Origin: an uncultured Clostridia bacterium
GTDB taxonomy: Bacteria; Bacillota; Clostridia; TANB77; CAG-465
DNA length: 33,360 bases
NCBI GenBank assembly: GCA_944388565.1
Contig: CALXJG010000009.1
Coordinates: 1-33,360, forward strand
Direction of reading: 5' to 3'
Of this stretch, positions 6,836 to 20,669 are shown piece after piece. The translations under genes and the position numbers were made by a program. Position 1 is the stretch's first letter, and every line of letters starts with the position of its first letter. The notes beneath the pieces are model-generated. The model was given only the letters and a program-made list of their open reading frames with translations, searched no databases and was not told the origin of the DNA.

Positions 6836-8185
6836 TTACGTTGGCATATCGATAAATCCACCCATATAAACATTTATTACTGGTACAACAATTGCTACAA
6901 CAAATATAATTAATGCAATACCAACAAATAAATATGTTACATCAGGTAATACTTTAACAAATCTAGCAACAGATTCGTCAATTTCCATTTCAATATATTC
7001 ATTAACTTTTTCCATCATATCAGCTAGGTCTGTTTTCATACCTATACCTACCATTTGGCTTACCATTGGTTTAAATAATTTTTTCTCTTCAAATGGGCCA
7101 AGCCAAGATTCACCAGCAAGAGATGCTGCTTTTGCCGATTCAATTACAGATAGAAAATAGTAGTTATTCGTTACACTTTTAGATATTTCAAGTGCCTCTT
7201 GTATTCTCATACCATTTCTTAGGTTAAGTAACATTGCCTGGAAGAACTTATTTACAGTTATATTATTCATTAAAGGACCAAGTACAGGGAATGTAAGTAA
7301 AAACTTATCCCAATTAAATTTACCACGAGGAGTATTAATGTATACTAGGAATAATCCAACAATAAGACCTATTACTGCTATTAACCATACCCAATTTGCA
7401 AGTAACCAGTTTGAAAAGTTAAGAACTGCCATTGTTGCCGCTGGAATTTGTTGAGAAGAATCAAACATATCATATACTTGTTCAAGTATTGGTACACCAA
7501 CAATAACAGCTACTATCATTGCAGCATTTATTCCAACAAATTGAAGGATTCTTGGTATTACGGCTTTTCTTATTTTCTTTTTTAGTGCCATTGAAGATTC
7601 TACATAATCTCTAGCATGTAGTAAAGCTGTATCAAGTGTACCAGAGTCTTCACCAACTCTTATAAAGTTAGTAAACATTGGTGGAAAAATTTTGGGATAA
7701 TTTTCCATAGTTATATGTAACTTTTCACCGGCTTGTACTCCTATTAATACATCTTCAATTACATCTTTAAATGTAGGATTTTCAATACCTTGATAAACAG
7801 CTTGTAAAGCTTGTATATTATTAAATTTTGCTTTCTTTAATATATAAAAGTTATTTACAAAAGAAATTATATCTTTTTCATTTACTCTAGCAAAAGGATG
7901 TATATCTAATTTCGATAAGTCTTTAAAAGTAAGTTTACTAAAATCAATATTTTCTTTATTTTTCCTTTGACGTCCAGAAGGATTATTATTCTTATTTCTT
8001 CTAGCAAGTCTTGCATAATCAATTCTTCTATACTTCTTTTTAACTTCTTTCATCCTTTTTATAGTTATAGGTTGAATATTTTCTTTTTTTAAACTTTCTA
8101 TGGCATGGGATTTATTTAGAGCCATTATTTTGCCTCTACCAATCTTACCGTTTTCAAAGATTACCCTATATTTATAACTTGGCAT
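6836..8185 (-). CDS. pilC: Type IV pilus platform protein PilC
   Basis: The 449-residue integral membrane protein is of the GspF/PilC family, which forms the core that the PilB and PilT motors act on. It opens with a small domain found in many PilC proteins (Y-K-Y-R-V-I-F-E-N-G-K, about 1-45). A basic linker rich in K, R and N follows (45-80), then two T2SSF repeats (about 105-230 and 310-440). Each repeat carries the family's F-x-x-x-F-x-x-L/I and G-E-x-L/W signatures: A-G-E-K-L-H near 153 and A-G-E-S-W-L near 353. Three strongly hydrophobic segments lie near 210-230, 255-280 and 415-440. GGGGTG precedes the ATG. It is the last gene of the operon, 29 bases after pilT, followed by a strong terminator. 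Confidence 0.94.
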   Translation of the reverse strand: MPSYKYRVIFENGKIGRGKIMALNKSHAIESLKKENIQPITIKRMKEVKKKYRRIDYARLARRNKNNNPSGRQRKNKENIDFSKLTFKDLSKLDIHPFARVNEKDIISFVNNFYILKKAKFNNIQALQAVYQGIENPTFKDVIEDVLIGVQAGEKLHITMENYPKIFPPMFTNFIRVGEDSGTLDTALLHARDYVESSMALKKKIRKAVIPRILQFVGINAAMIVAVIVGVPILEQVYDMFDSSQQIPAATMAVLNFSNWLLANWVWLIAVIGLIVGLFLVYINTPRGKFNWDKFLLTFPVLGPLMNNITVNKFFQAMLLNLRNGMRIQEALEISKSVTNNYYFLSVIESAKAASLAGESWLGPFEEKKLFKPMVSQMVGIGMKTDLADMMEKVNEYIEMEIDESVARFVKVLPDVTYLFVGIALIIFVVAIVVPVINVYMGGFIDMPT

Positions 8186-8214: not shown

Positions 8215-9312
8215 TTAATTTACATTAGCTCCTAAGTTAATAATTAATCCTTTTATGGCTTCTATTCTACTAGGATCTACTTGAGATTTTATAATATCCA
8301 TATCAACCAAACCTTCTACATATAGCTCAGCAAATGATGTTTCAAAGCTTCTACATCCAATTTCACGTAAAGTATGTATTGTATCTTCAATATCAGAAAC
8401 AGAAAATTTCTCTTGACGGATTTGAGCAGCAATTGTATTATTTACAACCATTACTTCTGGTACCATCTGTAATTCTCCTTTTAAATTAACAATAAGCTTT
8501 TGAGATACAACCATCTTAAGTACACTTGAAACTGCATTTTTTATTGACATCTGATCTGCAGGATTATACATACTTAATATTCTTTCTACTGTTTCACCAC
8601 AAGATCTAGTATGTAATGTTCCTATTACTAATCCACCTGATTCAGCTAAATCTATAGCTACATCCATCGTTCTTCTATCTCTTATCTCTCCAAGAACAGC
8701 AATGTCAGCATCTTCTCTTAGTAAGTTTATAAGGCCATCATAATAACTAAGAACATCTAATTCTTCACCAATTTCTTTTTGAATTATAATAGATTTATCA
8801 GATTTATGCTCATATTCTATTGGATCTTCTAAAGTAACAATTTTTTTATTTACTTCTTTATTTACTTCTTGTATGAAAGCATTCATAGTTGTTGATTTAC
8901 CAGAATTTACTTTACCAGTTAAAAGTATAAGACCTGAATTTATTACTTTCATTTTATTAATTATTTCTCTTAAGCCTAAATCTTTTATTGCAATCTCACC
9001 ATTAGGTATAATTCTTATAGAAAATGTAGGAACACCCTTTGTTAAAGATACATTTATTCTAAATTTATGATCAGAATACATGTATGAAAAGTCAGCTTGT
9101 TTTTTTGTTTCAAATACCTTTTTTAAACTAGGTTTTTCTACATAAAAATCCTCCACTATTTTAGCTAAAGTTGTATTAGTTATTGGCATTTTTGATTCAT
9201 CAAAAAATAGCTTTCTACTTATCCTATATACTGGTAATTGTCCAGGTGCCAAATGTACGTCAGTAGCACCTAGACTTATAGCTTTTTTCAAAATTAATTG
9301 TAAGTATTCCAT
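8215..9312 (-). CDS. pilT: Pilus retraction ATPase PilT
   Basis: The 365-residue hexameric motor ATPase depolymerises pili. Walker A is G-K-V-N-S-G-K-S-T at 133-141; it lacks the usual P-T-G but keeps G-x4-G-K-S. The Asp box is L-E-D-P-I-E-Y near 161-167, Walker B is D-I-A-V-L-G-E-I-R-D near 203-212, and the His box is G-T-L-H-T at 231-235. There is no tetracysteine zinc site, which separates it from PilB. The PilT-specific C-terminal A-I-R-x-L-I-R-E region is not obvious. The start has GGGAG seven bases upstream. It lies 12 bases after pilB and 29 before pilC, so it is co-transcribed. Presence of pilT predicts dynamic, twitching-type pili rather than a pseudopilus. Confidence 0.92.
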   Translation of the reverse strand: MEYLQLILKKAISLGATDVHLAPGQLPVYRISRKLFFDESKMPITNTTLAKIVEDFYVEKPSLKKVFETKKQADFSYMYSDHKFRINVSLTKGVPTFSIRIIPNGEIAIKDLGLREIINKMKVINSGLILLTGKVNSGKSTTMNAFIQEVNKEVNKKIVTLEDPIEYEHKSDKSIIIQKEIGEELDVLSYYDGLINLLREDADIAVLGEIRDRRTMDVAIDLAESGGLVIGTLHTRSCGETVERILSMYNPADQMSIKNAVSSVLKMVVSQKLIVNLKGELQMVPEVMVVNNTIAAQIRQEKFSVSDIEDTIHTLREIGCRSFETSFAELYVEGLVDMDIIKSQVDPSRIEAIKGLIINLGANVN

Positions 9313-9324
9313 TATTTATCTCCC

Positions 9325-10965
9325 TTATATTGTTATTTTTCTCTTTAATTCATCTATTGTTGTTAATCCACTTAAAACTTTACTTATTCCATCACATACT
9401 AATGGTTTATAATCTGTATTTTCAATAGCATATTTCTTTATATCAATAATTGAAAATCCTTCAGATATCATATATCTTAAATAATCATCTATACAAAGTA
9501 CTTCAAATAAACCTATTCTTTCATAATAACCTGTATTATTACAATAATCACATCCAACAGGCTCGTAAGTTTGGTATTCTTTTTCTAAATCGTATTCTAC
9601 TCCAGTTAATTTTGTAACTTTTTCAATATATTTCTTTTCATCATCTGTTAATACATGTGGTTTTTTACATTTATCACATAATGTTCTTACAAGTCTTTGT
9701 GATATTGTAGTAACAAGAGTTGCAGAAACATCATAATCAGAAATTCCCATTTTTCTTATTCTAGTAATTGCCTGTATTGAATCAATTGTATGTATTGTAC
9801 TTAATACTAAGTGACCTGTTTGACCAGCTTCAATAGCTATTCTTGCAGTTTCTTCATCACGAATCTCACCAACAAGTACTATATCTGGGTCCTGTCTTAA
9901 AACTGTTCTTAAAGCAGATGCGAATGTTATATTTGCACCTATTTCAACTTGGTTTATTCCAGGAATTCTACGTTCAACTGGGTTTTCAATAGATATTATG
10001 TTTATTTCTGGTCTATCCAAATATTCTATAACACTATATAATGTTGTAGTTTTACCCTCACCTGTTGGGGCACAAACTAATATTAAGCTATTTCTTTTAT
10101 CAAAAGCTCTCTCTACTAATTCTTTATCTTCTTTAAATCCTAGTTCAAATAATGTTTTTGAAGTTGCATTTTTCTTTAATAATCTTAGAACAAATTTTTC
10201 ACCATTTACATTCTTTTGGCTAGATACACGGATACTAAAATTATCATATGTATTAATACTACCATCTTGGTCATATACAATTTCTTGATGCATATTTGAA
10301 ATAGATTTTATTCTACCAGCTACAATATCTTGTCTTGATTTAGGTAGCTCTGTTACTGTTACAAGCTCACCATCAATTCTATATCTTATTCTTACTTTAT
10401 CTTCCATAGGCTCAATATGAATATCACTAGCTCTCTTTTCGATAGCTGTTAAAATAATGTTATCTATTAATTTAGTTACATCTTTTTCTTCTTTATCAAC
10501 AAATTTTGTACCTACACTTTTTATATTAGATATTTGTTTCATTATAGATGTATATAATGTAACATATATTTCCATATCAAAGCCTTGATTCATAAGTAGT
10601 AATTCAACTTCTTTTACTCTTGCTACATCCATTGGATCTGAGAAAGCAACTTTTAGAGTATTTCCATCAAGATCAAAAGGTAAAACTCTATAGTTTATTA
10701 TTATATCTCTTGGTAAAAATTGAGCTGGATTTATATCAAGTTCTCCATCTAACATTTCTGGAGTTACTTTTAGCTTATCTGCTATAACATCTAATAGTTT
10801 TTCTTTATCACACATATCAAGTATGTCAACAATTTCACCAAATTTTAAATCTCTATGATCTTTTTGATAATTTAATACTCTATCAACTTGTGCTTCTGTA
10901 AGTAAACCTTTTTTTATAAATTCGACACCTATCGGATTATTCTTAGATCTAATATTCTCAAACAT
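9325..10965 (-). CDS. pilB: Pilus extension ATPase PilB
   Basis: The 546-residue GspE/PilB family ATPase powers pilin polymerisation. An N-terminal MshEN-type domain (about 10-140, with F-G-E-I-V-D and V-L-P-F-D-L-D) leads into the motor. It has R-A-S-D-I-H-I-E-P near 178, Walker A A-P-T-G-E-G-K-T-T at 299-307, Asp box I-E-N-P-V-E near 326, Walker B with G-E-I-R-D at 366-370, and His box S-T-I-H-T near 389. The zinc site uses C430, C433, C472 and C475 (C-D-K-C and C-D-Y-C). In Walker A the usual Ser is Glu (T-G-E-G-K), which occurs in some Firmicutes PilB proteins. MshEN domains bind cyclic di-GMP in some homologues, but whether this one does is not visible. Start supported by GGGGAG. Confidence 0.95.
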   Translation of the reverse strand: MFENIRSKNNPIGVEFIKKGLLTEAQVDRVLNYQKDHRDLKFGEIVDILDMCDKEKLLDVIADKLKVTPEMLDGELDINPAQFLPRDIIINYRVLPFDLDGNTLKVAFSDPMDVARVKEVELLLMNQGFDMEIYVTLYTSIMKQISNIKSVGTKFVDKEEKDVTKLIDNIILTAIEKRASDIHIEPMEDKVRIRYRIDGELVTVTELPKSRQDIVAGRIKSISNMHQEIVYDQDGSINTYDNFSIRVSSQKNVNGEKFVLRLLKKNATSKTLFELGFKEDKELVERAFDKRNSLILVCAPTGEGKTTTLYSVIEYLDRPEINIISIENPVERRIPGINQVEIGANITFASALRTVLRQDPDIVLVGEIRDEETARIAIEAGQTGHLVLSTIHTIDSIQAITRIRKMGISDYDVSATLVTTISQRLVRTLCDKCKKPHVLTDDEKKYIEKVTKLTGVEYDLEKEYQTYEPVGCDYCNNTGYYERIGLFEVLCIDDYLRYMISEGFSIIDIKKYAIENTDYKPLVCDGISKVLSGLTTIDELKRKITI

Positions 10966-10981: not shown

Positions 10982-11203
10982 CTATAAATTATTGATCATA
11001 ACTCTATTATAATAATCTTCTATATTTTCCATATCTTTTTCATAATATTCCATATTATTTTTTTCATATTTATTTAACATTATACTAAAATGCTCATTCT
11101 CAGCAAAAGTAGTCATAGTGTATATAGAAAAAGCAATTGCAACAAAGATAACTACGATTATCCCAGAACCTTTTATTTTTTTCTTAATATTTATTCTTTT
11201 CAT
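10982..11203 (-). CDS. Small PilX/GspK-like minor pilin
   Basis: The 73-residue protein has a Lys-rich N-terminus (I-K-K-K-I-K-G-S-G) followed by a hydrophobic helix I-I-V-V-I-F-V-A-I-A-F, then a charged helical tail. The layout, and the A-E-N-E-H-F-S sequence after the helix, recall the N-terminal helix of PilX/GspK-type minor pilins. Cleavage could follow the first or second Gly, and neither choice puts Glu at +5. The usual globular domain is missing, so it is essentially a pilin stalk. Its ATG overlaps the stop of the upstream gene by one base (TAATG), indicating translational coupling. Assignment is by position and N-terminal pattern only. Confidence 0.6.
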   Translation of the reverse strand: MKRINIKKKIKGSGIIVVIFVAIAFSIYTMTTFAENEHFSIMLNKYEKNNMEYYEKDMENIEDYYNRVMINNL

Positions 11204-11673
11204 TATACCACATCACCTACTGTTACAAAAATTTGTGTCTCAAATTCTTGACCATATTTTTTAAATTTCACAGATACACATGAATAATCTTTATTTCTAT
11301 CAGTTGTTAATGATGTAAAAGTAGTTGGAATTCCAGTTAAATCATTTATAGTTATAATTTTAAACTCTTCAACATTTGTAACTAAAATACCACCGTTTTT
11401 ATATATAACTTTTTTCTCACTGTCATAGCTATATTCATCATTATTTGAAAATACCACTCTACCTGATATATGATCAATTGTTGTACTCTTTTTTGCACTG
11501 TTTAACATATTATATTGTAATTTTTGTGCTTGTTCATTAACCCAAACCTCACCTTTTTGTGATAGATTTCTATAATTCATATTTAAACTCATTCCAACTG
11601 CAAAGGCTGAAAATGCAAAGAATAAAGCAACATATATAACCATAGACATTAAAGAGATACCTTTTTTATTCAT
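11203..11673 (-). CDS. Minor pilin / pseudopilin (PilW-like)
   Basis: The 156-residue protein starts with a class III prepilin leader, N-K-K-G|I-S-L-M-S, followed by a hydrophobic helix to about residue 27. The +5 residue is Ser rather than the usual Glu. The remainder is a predicted extracellular beta-rich domain containing a Y-D-S-E-K-K-V-I-Y-K-N-G-G segment, which resembles the beta-strand repeats of PilW/GspJ-type minor pilins. AAGGTG precedes the ATG. It lies two bases after the fusion gene and overlaps the next gene, so the three pilin-like proteins are made together. Its role would be in fibre initiation at the tip, inferred from family and order. Confidence 0.72.
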   Translation of the reverse strand: MNKKGISLMSMVIYVALFFAFSAFAVGMSLNMNYRNLSQKGEVWVNEQAQKLQYNMLNSAKKSTTIDHISGRVVFSNNDEYSYDSEKKVIYKNGGILVTNVEEFKIITINDLTGIPTTFTSLTTDRNKDYSCVSVKFKKYGQEFETQIFVTVGDVV

Positions 11674-11674
11674 A

Positions 11675-12478
11675 TTATAACACCTTACCCTTTAAAGTTT
11701 TGATATTCTTTTCTATGATATTTCCCTCATACATATAAGAGACTTTTGCATCTATAGTTTTTACTAAATCTTCTTTTGAAAAATCTTGATCAGACAATTT
11801 GGTTACATTAACAGTTATGGTATATGTATTTCCATCAATTGTATCTTGCAAAGTATATGAAGATAAATCATCATAATTAGTTGCAAGGCAAACCTCAACA
11901 TTTTTTACCAATAAAGAATAAGCATGTGCGTCTAACATATTTTTTACTGATGTATTATTATAATTTCTATTTATTACTATTGAAGAAACTATAAGTATTG
12001 TAAACATTATCATTGCAACTATTAGTTCAGATACAAATACACCTGCTTTTTTATTAAGTTTTGACTCATTCTTTACTTCTTGTTTTTCTTCTTCAGTCAT
12101 ATTTTTTGACATTATTATTGATCCAATTATTACAAAAATTACTGCATATATTAAAGCAACAATTAGACATTTTATTGTATATCCAAAAATTAAATAAAAG
12201 CCCACAAAAACAAATCCATTTATTGTTTCAAGTAAAAAGTATCTTAAACTTATTTTATCTCCACAATATTTGCATTTTCCGCCTCTTATTATATAACTTA
12301 AAACTGGTATTAAATCCAAAAATTCTAATCTATGTTTACATTTTGGGCAATATGATCTTGTTGCAACTATATCTTGATGTCTTGGTAACCTGTACGTTGC
12401 AAGAGAAAAAAAGCTACCAAACAGACTTCCTATAATAAACATACAAAGAATTACAAAACAGTTTAAAAAAATTATCAT
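11675..12478 (-). CDS. Fusion: prepilin peptidase N-terminal (methyltransferase) domain plus pseudopilin
   Basis: The 267-residue product joins two proteins that are normally separate. Residues 1-125 are the N-terminal part of PilD: a membrane segment with G-S-L-F-G-S-F-F, then Y-R-L-P-R, the zinc site C44-P-K-C47 and C69-K-Y-C72, P-V-L-S-Y, S-L-R-Y and two more membrane segments. The C-terminal peptidase half with its catalytic aspartates (first Asp and GxGD) is absent. After an acidic linker (126-140), residues 141-267 are a pseudopilin: N-K-K-A-G146|V147-F-V-S-E151 with Gly at -1 and Glu at +5, a hydrophobic helix, and a soluble domain. Predicted topology puts the cleavage site in the cytosol, as for normal prepilins. 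No start codon exists at the junction (the codon is CTT, Leu), so this is one polypeptide. GGGGG precedes the ATG. Confidence 0.85.
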   Translation of the reverse strand: MIIFLNCFVILCMFIIGSLFGSFFSLATYRLPRHQDIVATRSYCPKCKHRLEFLDLIPVLSYIIRGGKCKYCGDKISLRYFLLETINGFVFVGFYLIFGYTIKCLIVALIYAVIFVIIGSIIMSKNMTEEEKQEVKNESKLNKKAGVFVSELIVAMIMFTILIVSSIVINRNYNNTSVKNMLDAHAYSLLVKNVEVCLATNYDDLSSYTLQDTIDGNTYTITVNVTKLSDQDFSKEDLVKTIDAKVSYMYEGNIIEKNIKTLKGKVL

Positions 12479-12603: not shown

Positions 12604-13128
12604 TTAAGGTTCATCAGTTTCAATCTCAGGAAGTGATTCTCCTACTTTATAATATACAGCTGGAGTATCATCAGTAGCTGGAGTCTTTACAGTTCCATTA
12701 ACTCCCCCTTGAGTTGGTACAGCTCTTACTTTACCATTTTTTGCATTAAATTGAATTTCTGCAATTGTAGATGGTTGCTTAATTCCTAATGCTGACCAAG
12801 TTACACCTTTTGCATATGTTTGACCAGCTGTTTCTGACCCATATTGTGCATCTGTTCCACTAAATCCAACTTGGATCCAAGAGTCATCTTCAGCTTCACT
12901 TGTCTTAAATGGTCCATCGTGTATTGGATTTTTTGCTATAAAGTTTGATATATATATATTTAATGCACTTGTTACTTCTGCAACGTCACTATCGAATGTT
13001 GCTTGTTTTGAATTTGCAATTGGGTTATTGTTATTTAATGTTAAAATAACCGCTGCTGCTAGTATTATTATAACAATTATTGTTATTACTAATACGATTA
13101 AAGAAATACCTTTTTTATTTGTTTTCAT
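12604..13128 (-). CDS. pilA: Type IV pilin, copy 1 (downstream)
   Basis: The 174-residue prepilin has leader M-K-T-N-K-K-G7, then I-S-L-I-V and a long hydrophobic helix ending near residue 31 with L-N-N-N-N-P-I. Its start has AAGGAG upstream. The +5 residue of the mature protein is Val12, not the Glu found in most type IV pilins. The helix carries on into F-D-S-D-V-A-E-V-T-S-A-L-N and a C-terminal domain with W-S-A-L-G-I-K-Q-P. It is a tandem paralogue of the gene at 13203-13688; the first 75 residues or so are almost identical, and the C-terminal tail is longer here and ends in an acidic P-E-I-E-T-D-E-P. Being duplicated and followed by hairpins suggests high expression, so these are the best candidates for the main fibre subunits. 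Confidence 0.85.
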   Translation of the reverse strand: MKTNKKGISLIVLVITIIVIIILAAAVILTLNNNNPIANSKQATFDSDVAEVTSALNIYISNFIAKNPIHDGPFKTSEAEDDSWIQVGFSGTDAQYGSETAGQTYAKGVTWSALGIKQPSTIAEIQFNAKNGKVRAVPTQGGVNGTVKTPATDDTPAVYYKVGESLPEIETDEP

Positions 13129-13157
13129 ATCTTTTCTCCTTTTAAATTAATATACAT

Positions 13158-13191
13158 TTTAAAACATTTATTAATACCATAAATGCTTTAA
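13158..13191. repeat. 34-bp palindromic element, copy 1 (3' of pilin copy 2)
   Basis: A hairpin of 11 bp with a 7-base loop (13161-13171 with 13179-13189) lies 12 bases after the stop of the gene at 13203. The 34-base block is the reverse complement of the block at 13737-13770 with a single difference, so the two copies flank pilin copy 2 in opposite orientation, which is told by their loops (TAATACC against GGTATTA). Confidence 0.75.
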
Positions 13192-13202
13192 GTTTTATTT
13201 AA

Positions 13203-13688
13203 TTAGAATGATTCTCCTACTTTATAGTTTCCACCACTATCTTTTGGAGATCCAACAACGCCTGTTTGTGTTGGTATAGCTCTTACTTTACCATTTACTG
13301 CATTAAATTGAATAGCTGCAATTGTAGATGGTTGTTTAATTCCTAATGCTGACCAAGATACACTTGTAGAATATGTTTGGCCAGCTGCTTCTGATCCATA
13401 TTTTGCATCATTAGCAGTTAATCCACCAACTGTAATCCAAGAGTTAGCTTCAGTTCCACTTGTCTTAAATGGTCCATCGTGTATTGGATTTTTTGCTATA
13501 AAGTTTGATATATATATATTTAATGCACTTGTTACTTCTGCAACGTCACTATCAAATGTTGCTTGTTTTGAATTTTGAATTGGGTTATTGTTATTTAATG
13601 TTAAAATAACAGCTGCAGCTAGTATTATTATAACGATTATTGTTATAACTAATACGATTAAAGAAATACCTCTTTTGTTTGTTTTCAT
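13203..13688 (-). CDS. pilA: Type IV pilin, copy 2 (upstream)
   Basis: The 161-residue prepilin has leader M-K-T-N-K-R-G7 and then I-S-L-I-V, again with Val rather than Glu at +5. The helix and the segment up to about residue 75 are nearly the same as in the paralogue at 12604-13128. The two diverge at residues 76-95 and in the tail, where this copy ends at K-V-G-E-S-F. Long stretches are also nearly identical at the DNA level, indicating recent duplication or gene conversion. The start has GGAGGGG-like spacing at 13695-13700. It is flanked by two oppositely oriented copies of a 34-bp palindrome. Probably a main fibre subunit; which copy dominates cannot be told. Confidence 0.85.
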   Translation of the reverse strand: MKTNKRGISLIVLVITIIVIIILAAAVILTLNNNNPIQNSKQATFDSDVAEVTSALNIYISNFIAKNPIHDGPFKTSGTEANSWITVGGLTANDAKYGSEAAGQTYSTSVSWSALGIKQPSTIAAIQFNAVNGKVRAIPTQTGVVGSPKDSGGNYKVGESF

Positions 13689-14658: not shown

Positions 14659-15444
14659 CTATTTTAATATAATTGTATTCTTTACATCAAATGTAGCTTT
14701 TATTGTTCTTCCAGATACATATTCAATAGAAATATTATCAAGTTTAAACTTTAAGTCTTTATCATTTTCTACTTCAAATATAAAATCTGAAACATTTATA
14801 TAACTACCTGTAACTTGTATCTTTAATACATTATCAGTTTGTGTTTCTTCTGTATTTTCACCATCTGTATTAGCAGCAGGTGGTAATGTAGTACCATCGT
14901 TACCTGTTGATGATGTATTTTCTGCTCCTGTTGTAGAATTATTAGTAGAACTTGTTGTATTAGAAGTAGTCGTACTAGAAGTTGCCGCAGGAGTTGTAGT
15001 TGTTGTATTAGTAGAAGTGTTTGTACCATTTGTTCCACTTCCTTGTGTTCCACCAGGTTCTACTAATACAATACCTAGATTGTTAGTTTTAGCATAATTT
15101 CCTAACTTAATCCACATGTATTCTATACTATAATTTTGTTGTTTTGTTGCCTCTTTAATTACGCTAACAGTTTCATCACTTATTGCTTCATACTTTTGTT
15201 TTTCTGTACTATAATTACTTTTTTCTGTTTCAAGGTTTTTTAAAGTATTTTTGTAATTATTTTCTTCTGCAGTAAGTGAAGCTTGAGCTTTAACTACATT
15301 ATCATGTTCTGACATAATAGTAGATATAGACGAAATTTTAATTGGTCCTAAATTTATATCAACAAGAGCAAATAATGTTAAAAGCCCTAAAGAAACAACA
15401 ATTATTAATATAGATATTAGAAGATTTTTATATACCTTTAACAT
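14659..15444 (-). CDS. PilO-like alignment protein with a Thr/Ser/Asn-rich insert
   Basis: The 261-residue bitopic protein has a membrane helix at about 9-29, a coiled-coil region (about 50-95, with T-A-E-E-N-N-Y-K-N-T-L-K-N-L-E-T-E-K), and a C-terminal domain with L-K-I-Q-V-T-G-S-Y-I-N-V-S-D-F-I, which matches the PilO ferredoxin-like domain where a strand and helix begin with V-x-G-x-Y. Between them lies a long Thr/Ser/Asn-rich stretch (about 130-200), which is not usual for PilO and may be a flexible linker or glycosylated. The ATG overlaps the stop of the PilM-PilN gene by one base, so they are translationally coupled. PilO partners PilN in the inner-membrane platform. Confidence 0.75.
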   Translation of the reverse strand: MLKVYKNLLISILIIVVSLGLLTLFALVDINLGPIKISSISTIMSEHDNVVKAQASLTAEENNYKNTLKNLETEKSNYSTEKQKYEAISDETVSVIKEATKQQNYSIEYMWIKLGNYAKTNNLGIVLVEPGGTQGSGTNGTNTSTNTTTTTPAATSSTTTSNTTSSTNNSTTGAENTSSTGNDGTTLPPAANTDGENTEETQTDNVLKIQVTGSYINVSDFIFEVENDKDLKFKLDNISIEYVSGRTIKATFDVKNTIILK

Positions 15445-17096
15445 TATGGTAATTCACCACCAATCTCTATAACAGTTGTTTCACCATTATTTATTTTATT
15501 GATTTTTACATTTTTTAATGTGCTACTTAATTTTAGCTCAGCTACAAAATAACCTAAATCTGCATAGCTATCAGATTGTGCTGTTATTTTTATATTTTTG
15601 TTATCATCTGAAGTAATAGTTTTAAGTTGAACATTTTTAGGAATGATCCTAATTATATTTTGCATAAATGATGCAACATTATATGTTGTAAACTTACCAA
15701 TTTGATTATTCTCAATTTGTTGAACTATATCAGATACATTATCATTAATTTCTTTATACTTTTTCATGTTAGTATTTATATATTGTATATCTGAGTTTAC
15801 TTGATCTTTTAAGTTTGAAATTTCAGTTTTTGTTTTATCTATATTATTTAAAGTTTTATTTACAGTACCAGTATATAATGAGCTAAATAATATATAAGCT
15901 ACAAGAACTATACAAGTAACGATCGCAGTACAAATAGCAATAGGTGTTGTATTTTCTTCTTGTATATCAATACTCAAACTTTTTAGTTTATTCATTCTAG
16001 CTTCTTTAGCTGCTTCTTTGGCTGCTTTTTTATCCTTAGGCGTTTTTTGAGCCCTAGATTTTTTATCGAATAAGTTAGAAAATCCTTTCTTCATTTTACT
16101 TATAGAATTTAAATAACCTACTCCCAGTTTTTGTTGTGATAAATGTTCATAAGCTATAGCCATAGCAGGTGTTGTTTCTAAAACTTCTGCTATGTTTTTT
16201 ATATTAGAGTTCATTTGTATAAAATCTGGTTTTAATATATCAGTTTTCATATCCAAATATTCTCTAAATAATATATCTATATTTGTAAATACAATTCCTG
16301 TACCAGTTAGTATAACTTTACTAACATCAGACCTATATTTATTCACCATAATAGCTATACTTTTTAATATATCTTGTAAAATAGGTTCTGCTATACTTTC
16401 TAACTCTTTATCGTTATTACTTTCTCCCTCACTATATACATTAAGTTGTTTACATGCCTCATAAGCCTTCTGAGTAGAGCCTAATTTTGTAGAAAAGTCA
16501 GTTAGTAATTGTCTCATACCAAAATCATAGAATTTAATATCAGCAACTTTGCCATTAATTACCACAAATATAGACAATAAATCATCTAGGTTAACAAGCA
16601 TATATCTATCTTCATTTGCTGGAACAATCCTAGTCATAACCAGCTCAGGTGGATAAATATTTGCAACAGGATAACTTTCTATTTGTGTATAACCATTTAT
16701 TTCATTCTTTTCAACAAAATTTAATACTGAATTATATTTATATTCATTATTTTTTAAGTCAGAATTTCTATGTACATATAAATACTTATCTGGAGATTTT
16801 GCGTTTCTTTCGCACCAAGCCTCAAATTCCATTTTAGCAATATCATTTGATATAGATTTATTGTTTTGAACTTGATCAAACATTTGATAATTTAAAAATT
16901 TGCTATTTTGAGGATTGATTACTATTGGAATGTATTGCGAATTAGTCTCTTCTATTATATTTTTTAATACAGACTTTGGATTATCATGTACAAACCTCAC
17001 TCCAGAACTTTCAAGTTTTGTTTCTTTTCCATCATTTGAAAGTTTAGCATATTTTACTATATTATTGCATAAATAAATTCCCAAACAATTAGCCAT
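15444..17096 (-). CDS. pilM/pilN: PilM-PilN fusion protein
   Basis: The 550-residue protein joins two platform proteins. Residues 1 to about 340 are PilM-like, an actin-fold cytosolic protein starting M-A-N-C-L-G-I-Y-L, with a V-I-L-T-G-T-G phosphate-loop-like segment near 265 and A-M-A-I-A-Y-E-H near 320. A basic linker (about 345-380, K/A-rich) leads into a membrane helix (about 388-410), a coiled coil (415-480) and a PilN-like periplasmic domain (485-550) containing I-I-P-K-N-V-Q-L and V-A-E-L-K-L. In most bacteria the two are separate and PilM binds a short N-terminal peptide of PilN; here the contact is covalent. AAGGAG precedes the ATG at 17094-17096. It is the first gene of the operon. 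Confidence 0.82.
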   Translation of the reverse strand: MANCLGIYLCNNIVKYAKLSNDGKETKLESSGVRFVHDNPKSVLKNIIEETNSQYIPIVINPQNSKFLNYQMFDQVQNNKSISNDIAKMEFEAWCERNAKSPDKYLYVHRNSDLKNNEYKYNSVLNFVEKNEINGYTQIESYPVANIYPPELVMTRIVPANEDRYMLVNLDDLLSIFVVINGKVADIKFYDFGMRQLLTDFSTKLGSTQKAYEACKQLNVYSEGESNNDKELESIAEPILQDILKSIAIMVNKYRSDVSKVILTGTGIVFTNIDILFREYLDMKTDILKPDFIQMNSNIKNIAEVLETTPAMAIAYEHLSQQKLGVGYLNSISKMKKGFSNLFDKKSRAQKTPKDKKAAKEAAKEARMNKLKSLSIDIQEENTTPIAICTAIVTCIVLVAYILFSSLYTGTVNKTLNNIDKTKTEISNLKDQVNSDIQYINTNMKKYKEINDNVSDIVQQIENNQIGKFTTYNVASFMQNIIRIIPKNVQLKTITSDDNKNIKITAQSDSYADLGYFVAELKLSSTLKNVKINKINNGETTVIEIGGELP

Positions 17097-17425: not shown

Positions 17426-18007
17426 CTATCTTTTTTCTGTTATACTTAGTTTATTAGGATCAGCTCCCAACTGATCTACTAATATTTGCTGTATTTGAGC
17501 TATTTGTTCTTGTTTTAATTCTTCACTGGATTTTACAACAACATTTATATTATCATTATTTGTTGGTATTATTACAATATCTTCAATTCCTTTTGACTTA
17601 ATAACATTTTCCACCATCATTATTAAATTCTTTTTTTCTATTAATTCATCTAACTTCTTTTGATATTCATTAACTTGTTCTGTGCTAGTATTTGCATTAC
17701 TAATTATATTAGTATAATTTTCACTTAGTTCTGAAAACATATTATCTCTATCATATTTAAACACTGCTATAGAATCATCTTGTGAAGAATATTCATCAGT
17801 TGATGTATTCGTATTAACACTTTCATTTTCAGAATTTTCATATATACTTACATTTTCATATGTATAACCATCTTTTCCATTAACATATACAGTTTGACCC
17901 AAATTTTTTTCTCTTTCTGGATTATATCTATAATTAATATATCCTGCAACTGTGACCATAAGCCCAACTGAAAGTAATGCTAAAGTACTTCTTTTTATAA
18001 ATTTCAT
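17426..18007 (-). CDS. spoIIIAH: Stage III sporulation protein AH (SpoIIIAH)
   Basis: The 193-residue protein is the mother-cell half of the SpoIIIAH-SpoIIQ channel. It has a basic N-terminus, a single membrane helix at about 8-25 ending in G-Y-I-N-Y-R-Y-N-P, and a disordered Ser/Asn/Asp linker (about 45-80). The YscJ/FliF-like ring domain follows (about 95-190) with E-I-I/V-I-P-T and V-V-V-K-S-S-E-E-L, ending in L-S-I-T-E-K-R. Y-N-P at residues 27-29 and the closing V-D-Q-L-G-A-D-P motif agree with the family. AGGTG precedes the ATG at 18005-18007; it is 8 bases after spoIIIAG. It is the last gene before the terminator. Confidence 0.93.
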   Translation of the reverse strand: MKFIKRSTLALLSVGLMVTVAGYINYRYNPEREKNLGQTVYVNGKDGYTYENVSIYENSENESVNTNTSTDEYSSQDDSIAVFKYDRDNMFSELSENYTNIISNANTSTEQVNEYQKKLDELIEKKNLIMMVENVIKSKGIEDIVIIPTNNDNINVVVKSSEELKQEQIAQIQQILVDQLGADPNKLSITEKR

Positions 18008-18015
18008 AGTATCAC

Positions 18016-18564
18016 CTACCCTTGCTTTTCAAAGACCTGAACTTTATAGACAGGAATTCCTGTTACTGTTGCTATTGCAGTTGCTATTTTTGACCTAATA
18101 TCAACACTACTTGCACCTTTTGCAACGACTAATATCCCCTCTACTTTAGGCATTTCTATTGATTCTACTATAGCTGTTTTTTTACTTCCATCTTCATTGT
18201 ATGCAACTGACTTTTCACTTGTTTTTTCTCCATCTTTTTCTGATTCTTTTGTATTATATGCAACATTTTGTTTGCTATCTTGAGAATATGTAACTACTAC
18301 TGATACCTCACTTACACCTGATATTTGCGATAATACATTAGCAAGCTTTGTTTCAAGTTCACTTTGGGTGTTAGAACTTGTATTACTACTATTATCTATT
18401 ATATTTTGATTAGAACTTGTATTATTACTATTTTTATCTTTATTGCTAAATATAACATTTATAGCAATTAAAAGTACAACAAGTAAGATAACCAAAAAAA
18501 CTAAATTTTCTACTCTTTTATTCTTATCTTTTGTAATATTTTTAATAGTTTCCAAATAATTCAT
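18016..18564 (-). CDS. spoIIIAG: Stage III sporulation protein AG (SpoIIIAG)
   Basis: The 182-residue protein has one membrane helix (about 21-40) and an Asn/Ser-rich linker (45-65). The conserved ring-building domain follows, with L-A-N-V-L-S-Q-I-S-G-V-S-E-V-S-V-V-V-T-Y near 75-95 and I-E-M-P-K-V-E-G-I-L-V-V-A-K-G-A near 140-155, both diagnostic of SpoIIIAG. In Bacillus subtilis AG forms a large ring in the mother-cell membrane at the septum. GGGGGAT lies upstream of the ATG. It is three bases downstream of spoIIIAF. Confidence 0.94.
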   Translation of the reverse strand: MNYLETIKNITKDKNKRVENLVFLVILLVVLLIAINVIFSNKDKNSNNTSSNQNIIDNSSNTSSNTQSELETKLANVLSQISGVSEVSVVVTYSQDSKQNVAYNTKESEKDGEKTSEKSVAYNEDGSKKTAIVESIEMPKVEGILVVAKGASSVDIRSKIATAIATVTGIPVYKVQVFEKQG

Positions 18565-18567
18565 AGT

Positions 18568-19089
18568 CTAATCCCCCTCTTCAATAACTTCAATTTTAGA
18601 ATAGCCTATATCATATTCTTCATTTATATATTTAACAATTTGTGTAACTGATGATATACTAGCTTTACTTGTATCAATTTTCTCTATATTTATCTCTATT
18701 TTTTCTATATCATAATTATCAGATATAAATACATCAACACTTTTAACGACAATACTTTTTCCCTCTAATTTTGATTTTACATCATTTTTTATACTTTGAA
18801 TAAAACTCTTTTTTACAGCTTCTTCTTTAACATTACTATATTTTTCAGTATCAACATTTACATTTTCTTGTTCATCTAAATTGGATAACACACTTTTTAT
18901 ACTATCTTGCATATCATTATTTTTAAATATATCTATAAGAGGAGATACTAATGCAATTATTGTTATTATTCCTATTAATGAATATATATATTTTCTTAGA
19001 TTATTTTTTGGAATTACAAGCCTTATAATTGTCACAAATATTCCCAAACATAGTAACACACTAATCCAATTTCTAAATAAATCAATCAT
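18568..19089 (-). CDS. spoIIIAF: Stage III sporulation protein AF (SpoIIIAF)
   Basis: The 173-residue protein has two membrane helices near the N-terminus (about 7-25 and 33-52, with N-L-R-K-Y-I-Y-S-L-I-G between) and an extracytoplasmic ring-like domain from about 90. F-R-N-W-I at the start and K-Y-I-Y-S-L-x-G at 33 are family marks. GGAGAGG precedes the ATG. It sits 21 bases after spoIIIAE and is part of the engulfment-stage channel complex. Confidence 0.9.
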   Translation of the reverse strand: MIDLFRNWISVLLCLGIFVTIIRLVIPKNNLRKYIYSLIGIITIIALVSPLIDIFKNNDMQDSIKSVLSNLDEQENVNVDTEKYSNVKEEAVKKSFIQSIKNDVKSKLEGKSIVVKSVDVFISDNYDIEKIEINIEKIDTSKASISSVTQIVKYINEEYDIGYSKIEVIEEGD

Positions 19090-19110
19090 TTTTACCTCTC
19101 CTCTTATGTA

Positions 19111-20289
19111 TTATTTAACAACACTATTAGCTAAATTAAATATTATTCCACTTGATATTACAAACAAAATCGTTACACCAATTAATATACCAAGTATCGT
19201 CTTATATATATTTGCAAATCCAGATATAAATTTATTAATTTGTTCTGATCCACAAATCGGTTCAACCACTGCTCCAAGCAACATATAGATTATCATTATA
19301 CTTAACACTTTAAGTATTGGTACTAAAGCTATTAATACAATAGCTAATATTGCTACCCCTCCACCAACTTTAGCTATTATCTTACTTGCTCCAACAACTG
19401 TTTCAAAACTATCTGAAAAGAATTTGCCTACAACCGGCACAAAATTTGACACAGCTGTTTGAGTTGTCTTTACTGCAAGCGAATCAACCGAACTAGAAAG
19501 TGATGTTTCAAGTGATAGTATTCCTAAAAATATCGTTAAGATTACACTTACTATCCACATACTAGAACTTGAGAATAGTTTAGATAACTTATTTAATCTT
19601 AAATTTTCAGATATTGAAGATATTACATTAAATGCAACCGATATACTTAAAAAAGGTATAACTATATATGTTATTATAAAGCCTATTGCACTTGCTACAA
19701 ATAAAAGTAATGGTTGAATTATACCTGTACTTGTAATCGCTCCTGTTGCTATTAGTATTGCCATCATAAAAGGTGATATTGTTTGCATAAGTGTAGTAAG
19801 GGCATTTATTACATCTTTTAACATAGAGATAACATCTATAAATGTAGCAATTGTTATTGTAGCAATTACCAAAAAGCAAGCTAAATGTGCTATTTTAGTA
19901 ACATCACTTTTATTTTCAAGTTCAATACTATTAATTAATGCCATTACTATTATTATTATAAATATTGATATAGCACCATTTAAAGCTCCTAGTATTTCTT
20001 TTGAAAATACACTTAATACCTTACCAAGTAAAGAGTTATAATCTAATTTTGAGTTTGTCATAAGTTCATCAGTTATACTATTTATATCTATATCATAAAG
20101 TCCACTTTCCTTTATATGTTCATCAATTGTTTTTATATATTCATCAAAATCTAAATCTTGTGCTAAGTTTTCTTTTACATCTTGATTTTCCTCATTTCCT
20201 TCAGCTTTTATATTTACAAAAAACATATTAAAAACTGATATAACAATTAAAAAAAATATAATTATTCTCTTCTTTTTTACCATACTCAT
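19111..20289 (-). CDS. spoIIIAE: Stage III sporulation protein AE (SpoIIIAE)
   Basis: The 392-residue polytopic membrane protein has an N-terminal signal-like segment (about 8-25), an extracytoplasmic acidic region (D-V-K-E-N-L-A-Q-D-L-D-F-D-E-Y), and about eight hydrophobic helices from 90 onwards. The last ones contain V-V-E-P-I-C-G and I-S-G-F-A-N, conserved in SpoIIIAE. It is the large permease-like component of the SpoIIIA-SpoIIQ complex. It overlaps the end of spoIIIAD by four bases (ATGA), showing translational coupling; a second in-frame ATG two codons later is the alternative start. Confidence 0.94.
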   Translation of the reverse strand: MSMVKKKRIIIFFLIVISVFNMFFVNIKAEGNEENQDVKENLAQDLDFDEYIKTIDEHIKESGLYDIDINSITDELMTNSKLDYNSLLGKVLSVFSKEILGALNGAISIFIIIIVMALINSIELENKSDVTKIAHLACFLVIATITIATFIDVISMLKDVINALTTLMQTISPFMMAILIATGAITSTGIIQPLLLFVASAIGFIITYIVIPFLSISVAFNVISSISENLRLNKLSKLFSSSSMWIVSVILTIFLGILSLETSLSSSVDSLAVKTTQTAVSNFVPVVGKFFSDSFETVVGASKIIAKVGGGVAILAIVLIALVPILKVLSIMIIYMLLGAVVEPICGSEQINKFISGFANIYKTILGILIGVTILFVISSGIIFNLANSVVK

Positions 20290-20669
20290 ACCAGTCCTGT
20301 TAATATACTTATTAATGAATTAATAATTGGTAGACTAAGTGTAACTATAACTACTTTTCCTGCCATTTCTAATTTTGTTGCTATGGCAGTTTGTCCAGCA
20401 TCAGTGCATATATTTTTACCAAATTCTACTATATATGCTATAATGGTGATTTTAATAATAATTATTAGGAAATCTTTGTTAATACCTGATTTATTTGCTA
20501 AACTATCTAAAAGATTAAATATATCACTCATCTTGTATATGGCAAATAACATTACTCCAACTGCTGCAGTAATTGTTAGTAATAACGCCATTTCAGGCTT
20601 CTGCTGTTTTATAATAATAATTAGAATTGTTGCTATTATACAAAAACTAACCACCTTAAAAATTTCCAT
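20286..20669 (-). CDS. spoIIIAD: Stage III sporulation protein AD (SpoIIIAD)
   Basis: The 127-residue small membrane protein has four hydrophobic helices. Residues about 75-100 (I-A-Y-I-V-E-F-G-K-N-I-C-T-D-A-G-Q-T) form the E-F-x-x-x-x-C-x-D-A-G motif found in both SpoIIIAC and SpoIIIAD. Length fits the family. AGGTG precedes the ATG at 20667-20669, and the next gene overlaps its stop. Part of the spoIIIA complex in the mother-cell membrane. Confidence 0.93.
   Translation of the reverse strand: MEIFKVVSFCIIATILIIIIKQQKPEMALLLTITAAVGVMLFAIYKMSDIFNLLDSLANKSGINKDFLIIIIKITIIAYIVEFGKNICTDAGQTAIATKLEMAGKVVIVTLSLPIINSLISILTGLV

Follow-up and report, generated by a model that had tools for sequence, protein, structure and literature searches.

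Results and Discussion

The pilus operon and the fused gene

The window, by which we mean the whole stretch of 33,360 nucleotides analyzed here from an uncultured Clostridia bacterium, carries a type IV pilus operon of the monoderm type with the gene order PilM/N-like, PilO-like, two tandem main-pilin paralogues, a fused gene, a second minor pilin, PilB, PilT and PilC. The PilM/PilN-like assembly protein (15444..17096), the PilB extension ATPase (9325..10965), the PilT-like ATPase (8215..9312) and the PilC platform protein (6836..8185), all encoded on the minus strand, were recognized by the Pfam families PilN (3.2e-7), MshEN plus T2SSE, T2SSE and T2SSF, respectively; the PilO-like assignment rests on position and size only. 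Both major-pilin-like proteins (12604..13128 and 13203..13688, minus strand) start with GISLIVLV and have Val at residue 5. The second minor pilin (11203..11673, minus strand; GISLMSM..., Ser5) starts 1 nt past the stop codon of the fused gene. Main-pilin genes with Val5 and not Glu5 stand in tandem, two in the window (12604-13688) and six in locus L070. Directly upstream of the operon lie genes that were judged by eye to be spoIIIA-like sporulation genes (AE to AH; window positions 17426-20669). Elsewhere in the same genome, at L222 (217-1581), the pilin-type N-terminus GISLITLVITI is followed by a large domain, some 430 aa in length.

The fused gene (11675..12478, minus strand) is a single uninterrupted reading frame of 267 aa plus stop, running from 12478 to 11675. 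Its analysis confirmed that A24_N, the putative N-methyltransferase half of PilD, is joined in frame, through an extra helix and a linker, to a type IV pilin. The A24_N_bact domain occupies residues 15-97 (12188..12436, minus strand; Pfam PF06750, 2.2e-29) and retains the four zinc cysteines C44, C47, C69 and C72 and the [RK]-x-P motif. It is followed by a third predicted transmembrane helix at about residues 102-123 (12110..12175, minus strand), located by a helix at 102-125 in an AlphaFold model and by alignment to intact PilD, and by a predicted cytosolic linker, residues 124-146 (12041..12109, minus strand), which contains 6 K/R and 5 D/E and ends in KKAG. The remainder (residues 147-267; 11678..12040, minus strand) would be the mature minor pilin, starting VFVSE with Glu5 and modelled in a GspI/XcpV-type fold with a helix at 147-199 and a four-strand sheet.

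The fusion resembles PilD (GspO, ComC; A24_N_bact plus Peptidase_A24) in its CxxC...CxxC, FGSF and R-x-P motifs, and the predicted topologies agree as far as the third helix; an A24_N domain with four zinc cysteines, as expected of PilD, is present. Unlike PilD, which has eight transmembrane helices, the fusion has lost five of these together with the two catalytic Asp and has a pilin in their place; only three helices precede the pilin helix in the model. No Pfam match to Peptidase_A24 (PF01478) was obtained in the fused frame and GxGD is absent from it. In the alignment to intact PilD, the first catalytic Asp is expected at the end of the third helix, where GID is replaced by GS-I-I, and the junction lies just beyond this position. 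The sequence-only reading had proposed an intact zinc-binding domain, loss of the peptidase half and a pseudopilin leader near the first Asp of PilD, and all three are borne out. The processing site, KKAG/VFVSELIVAMIMF, meets the criterion for type IV pilins, with Gly at -1 (G146), V147 opening a hydrophobic stretch and Glu at position 5 (E151). The short hydrophilic leader of pilins (6-51 residues) is not found, since the stretch ahead of the site has 146 residues and three helices.

Predicted fold and topology

The AlphaFold model of the fusion contains helices at residues 2-33, 78-98 and 102-125, a linker helix at 129-141, a long helix that begins precisely at V147 and extends to residue 199, and four strands. 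Pilins are defined by a long alpha-1 helix that packs against an antiparallel sheet, and this arrangement is present, although in a predicted model only. The mean pLDDT was 79 and the pTM 0.57, indicating that the relative placement of the domains is unsure. The distribution of charges obeys the positive-inside rule: K/R residues number 11 in the zinc loop and 6 in the linker, and there are nearly none elsewhere. The predicted order of three helices, K/E-rich linker and pilin helix, together with these charges, places the G146/V147 bond on the cytosolic face, the side on which prepilin peptidase cuts, in agreement with the topology first suggested from the sequence; this location remains a prediction from the model. 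A24_N profiles gave no sequence match to PDB entries. A Foldseek search with the model of a degenerate PilD gave no meaningful match and NCBIfam yielded no informative name.

The fused pilin and residue 5

The structural matches of the pilin half were 2ret_A (Z 11.0, rmsd 2.5 over 82 aligned residues), 3ci0_I (Z 10.7), 3cfi_D (Z 10.5), 5bw0_F (Z 10.2) and 5vtm_V (Z 9.2); the six best (Z 8.9-11.0) were all GspI/EpsI/XcpV chains or an Xcp pseudopilus model, and Streptococcus sanguinis PilA scored Z 7.5. The fused pilin therefore meets the GspI fold criterion and is predicted, on the basis of the model, to be a GspI-type tip initiator. Minor pilins of the GspI type make up the tip complex at the end of the filament where assembly begins (PMC10191384). 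The likeness to GspI (XcpV/EpsI) and to S. sanguinis PilA includes the predicted fold, Glu5 and the cleavage site between Gly and a hydrophobic residue, and like GspI-type pilins the fused pilin is encoded beside another minor pilin. In contrast to GspI and PilA, an enzyme domain with three membrane helices replaces the short leader.

At residue 5 the 18 fused pilins all have Glu, the 18 second minor pilins all have Ser, and the main pilins of the family have Val, so that the fused pilin is the sole Glu5 pilin of the operon. In 55 of 64 loci of sister families, the pilin that comes first after A24_N carries D or E at this position, compared with 2 of 165 other candidate pilins, which contain some false calls. 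A search of the genome with Pfam N_methyl gave only two weak matches, pilins with Val5 and Thr5; since this profile misses the fused pilin itself, the search cannot exclude other Glu5 pilins in the genome. Glu5 is important to N-methylation of the Pseudomonas aeruginosa pilin. On this ground the fused pilin, the one pilin of the operon with Glu5, is the most likely target of methylation, a choice which is inferred only.

Conservation of the fusion

The sequence-only reading knew of no comparable fusion and proposed looking for both domains in one chain. This search recovered the full-length fusion in 18 genomes from 18 species, which cover all five sampled genera of the family. Nine aligned genus relatives share 44-74% identity with the protein encoded in the window. 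In the alignment of 10 sequences C44, C47, C69, C72, G146, V147, F148 and E151 were invariant; position 1 of the pilin is Ala, and not Val, in two more distant family members. The dN/dS ratio was 0.04-0.08 for the A24_N part and 0.14-0.21 for the pilin part, estimated from three pairs, two of them with high dS. These substitution ratios indicate that purifying selection acts on both halves of the fusion. Profile matches of full length were confined to the window's family among 391 genomes sampled from the class, a search which a fusion to an unrelated pilin could escape, and among the matches listed in a plasmid search only the A24_N region was matched, with at most 40% coverage. No precedent for a fusion of pilin and A24_N was found in the open-licence literature.

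An internal start yielding a separate pilin was also considered and rejected. No ribosome-binding site with a start codon in the linker is conserved among relatives, and none occurs in the window; weak GGAG/AGGA matches were seen in a minority of relatives only.

One genome of the family (G015) instead carries the halves as a pair of genes that overlap at ATGA. AGAGG precedes the second gene, and the pilin half on its own is an ordinary prepilin whose leader has 12 residues. The sequence-only reading had held that separate frames in close relatives would reveal a sequencing error in the window. Such a relative exists, but the inference of an error does not hold: G015 has two genuine genes, with a ribosome-binding site and the ATGA overlap, and it is nested inside the fused clade on the PilB tree (support 100/99; rooted for drawing only). 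Because of this position, the two-gene state probably represents a later fission, as far as the tree can tell. Linkage of the halves is therefore dispensable in at least one lineage. The two genes of G015 could also be taken as a sign that an error of sequencing or assembly joined two genes in the window, or that the A24_N part is a decaying relic. The 18 fused relatives rule out sequencing error or chance fusion: the identical junction recurs in 18 independent genomes. The dN/dS of the A24_N part and the place of G015 within the fused clade also speak against an artefact or pseudogene. We give this explanation practically no credence, and it is already refuted by the retention of the fusion in divergent species.

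A separate A24 peptidase in the same genome

The genome of the window (1.38 Mb, 98% complete) was searched for A24_N and for A24 peptidases. A24_N was detected once, in the fused gene, and neither a second copy nor an intact PilD was detected elsewhere in the genome. The A24 peptidase called for by the sequence-only reading was also detected once, as a separate gene on a different contig (L003, 776-1531). It encodes a protein of 251 aa with both Asp motifs (FSID...IP and GMGFGD), without the zinc cysteines. A remnant of the first A24_N helix is retained (FGQ...NKKMP) and the zinc loop is missing. With a single A24_N and a single A24 peptidase detected, in distinct genes, the two activities of PilD are partitioned and the two genes are complementary. 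TadV and the archaeal FlaK/PibD, which are peptidase only, resemble this protein in having two Asp and no methyltransferase domain. They differ from it in that the separate peptidase keeps the helix remnant and that its missing half is another gene of the same genome.

The separate peptidase was detected in 16 of the 19 family genomes with A24_N. It was not found by profile and protein searches in G008, G018 and G027; as these are draft genomes, its absence is weak evidence and perhaps reflects assembly gaps. In the sample of the order, A24_N was detected in 224 and A24 peptidase in 274 of 287 genomes, and many genomes of the genus have an A24 peptidase and no A24_N. Genus members without A24_N (L038-L050) mostly carry a divergent A24 peptidase starting MQS(I/L), without zinc cysteines.

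Sister families and the origin of the fusion

The states of PilD in sister families were compared at the same operon position. In most cases family f5 has an intact PilD (GID...IPN, GxGD), encoded immediately upstream of a minor pilin with Glu5, and two A24 matches were obtained in the majority of its genomes. PilD of families f3 and f4 still possesses its second half, with eight helices in the model, and the gene adjoins the orthologous pilin, lying directly upstream of it. Of the 65 PilD-like proteins of these families that were checked (L082-L146), none has GxGD and all have CxxC...CxxC, and in an alignment of 27 sequences the A24_N half has 28 invariant columns, the remainder 1. Peptidase-dead PilD with intact A24_N at this position is widespread in f3 and f4 (L082-L146, L210-L212). 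In two f3 genomes (L217, 1988-2813; L218, 1940-2750; gene-strand coordinates) a break just past the third helix divides the dead PilD into two frames, apparently a further case in which the peptidase half was lost. Family f2 has A24_N as a stand-alone gene of 127-134 aa (G036, G040; L202, 1948-2349; L203, 1984-2364). Like the fusion, these genes lack the peptidase half and have A24 peptidases elsewhere in the genome; unlike it, they are unfused and the neighbouring pilins have the canonical Glu5.

Profile comparison with hhalign matched the fused pilin to the next gene of the sister families with an E value of 1.8e-17, indicating that the two are orthologues, whereas E values of 0.002 and 0.77 against the second minor pilin gave no support for orthology. 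The fusion may thus have arisen from an intact PilD by way of a PilD with a dead peptidase half, followed by truncation and in-frame joining to the downstream pilin. This order of steps is plausible and is inferred from the states seen in the sister families.

Proposed mechanism and alternative explanations

The explanation that we favour, and which we hold to be somewhat better than an even bet, is that the fusion derives from a dismantled PilD, is cut by the separate peptidase and methylates, through A24_N, the pilin thus freed. As the sequences show, an operon-encoded PilD has lost its peptidase half, and A24_N with one further helix has been joined in frame to the following gene, that of a GspI-type minor pilin. 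Another A24 gene, located elsewhere, has retained both catalytic Asp but no longer has the zinc loop. The protein would insert via its three helices, leaving the linker and G146/V147 toward the cytosol. Cleavage there by the separate peptidase would yield, in a 1:1 ratio, the mature pilin with VFVSE at its N-terminus and an A24_N domain that stays in the membrane, and A24_N, with zinc and SAM, would methylate the new N-terminus of the released Glu5 pilin. The tip-initiating subunit would thereby be made together with its own modifier. Methylation by A24_N has been described as lacking formal demonstration (PMC4471445). The fusion, its conservation, the partition of activities, the operon context and the orthology of the pilin are demonstrated by sequence; topology, fold and GspI type are predicted; cleavage, methylation and substrate preference are inferred only. 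The favoured explanation is weakened by the lack of biochemical data, the known members being from MAGs of uncultured bacteria, and the peptidase may act poorly on a leader with 146 residues and three helices. The three family genomes in which the peptidase was not found and the dispensable linkage in G015 also count against it.

A24_N might instead have another role, with methyl transfer absent or secondary: stabilised by zinc, it would bind the separate peptidase and re-form a PilD-like complex in trans. Such a complex would receive the initiator pilin, and through the fusion the initiator would be the first pilin processed. In keeping with this, the genome contains two complementary halves, its peptidase keeps the first-helix remnant and lacks the zinc loop, and A24_N is maintained while the peptidase half decays. 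However, removal of zinc from PilD stops methylation and not cleavage (PMC3584216), and the many genus genomes with an A24 peptidase and no A24_N indicate that A24 peptidases need no A24_N; we regard this explanation as unlikely. It is also conceivable that the fusion remains uncut, the pilin part anchoring the protein at the assembly platform and A24_N acting on neighbouring pilins as they pass. The predicted topology would allow this, and the leader is atypical in length, known prepilin leaders having 6-51 residues (PMC6916266). All fused members, however, have Gly at -1 and a small or hydrophobic residue 1, as for a cut site. The orthologous pilins of sister families and of G015 have ordinary short leaders, and the presumed major pilins lack Glu5. 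An uncut, tethered enzyme seems to us more improbable still.

It may also be that the leader of a pilin has been turned into an enzyme that modifies the same pilin, a methyltransferase used once per molecule and dedicated to the initiating subunit. We advance this reading only tentatively and consider it doubtful. Should it be true, pilin methylation in this lineage would mark the tip initiator, the sole Glu5 pilin of the operon, and not the bulk of the filament.

The purpose of pilin methylation has been called a mystery (PMC10191384). In this family evolution has split the two activities of PilD into two proteins, each of which can be removed or assayed alone, providing a natural system for testing the role of methylation, and the identity of residue 5 gives a prediction of the substrate pilin. 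The presumed methyltransferase has been kept under selection after loss of the peptidase, attached to one particular pilin, and the series of families offers a readable example of the dismantling of an enzyme with reuse of one of its domains.
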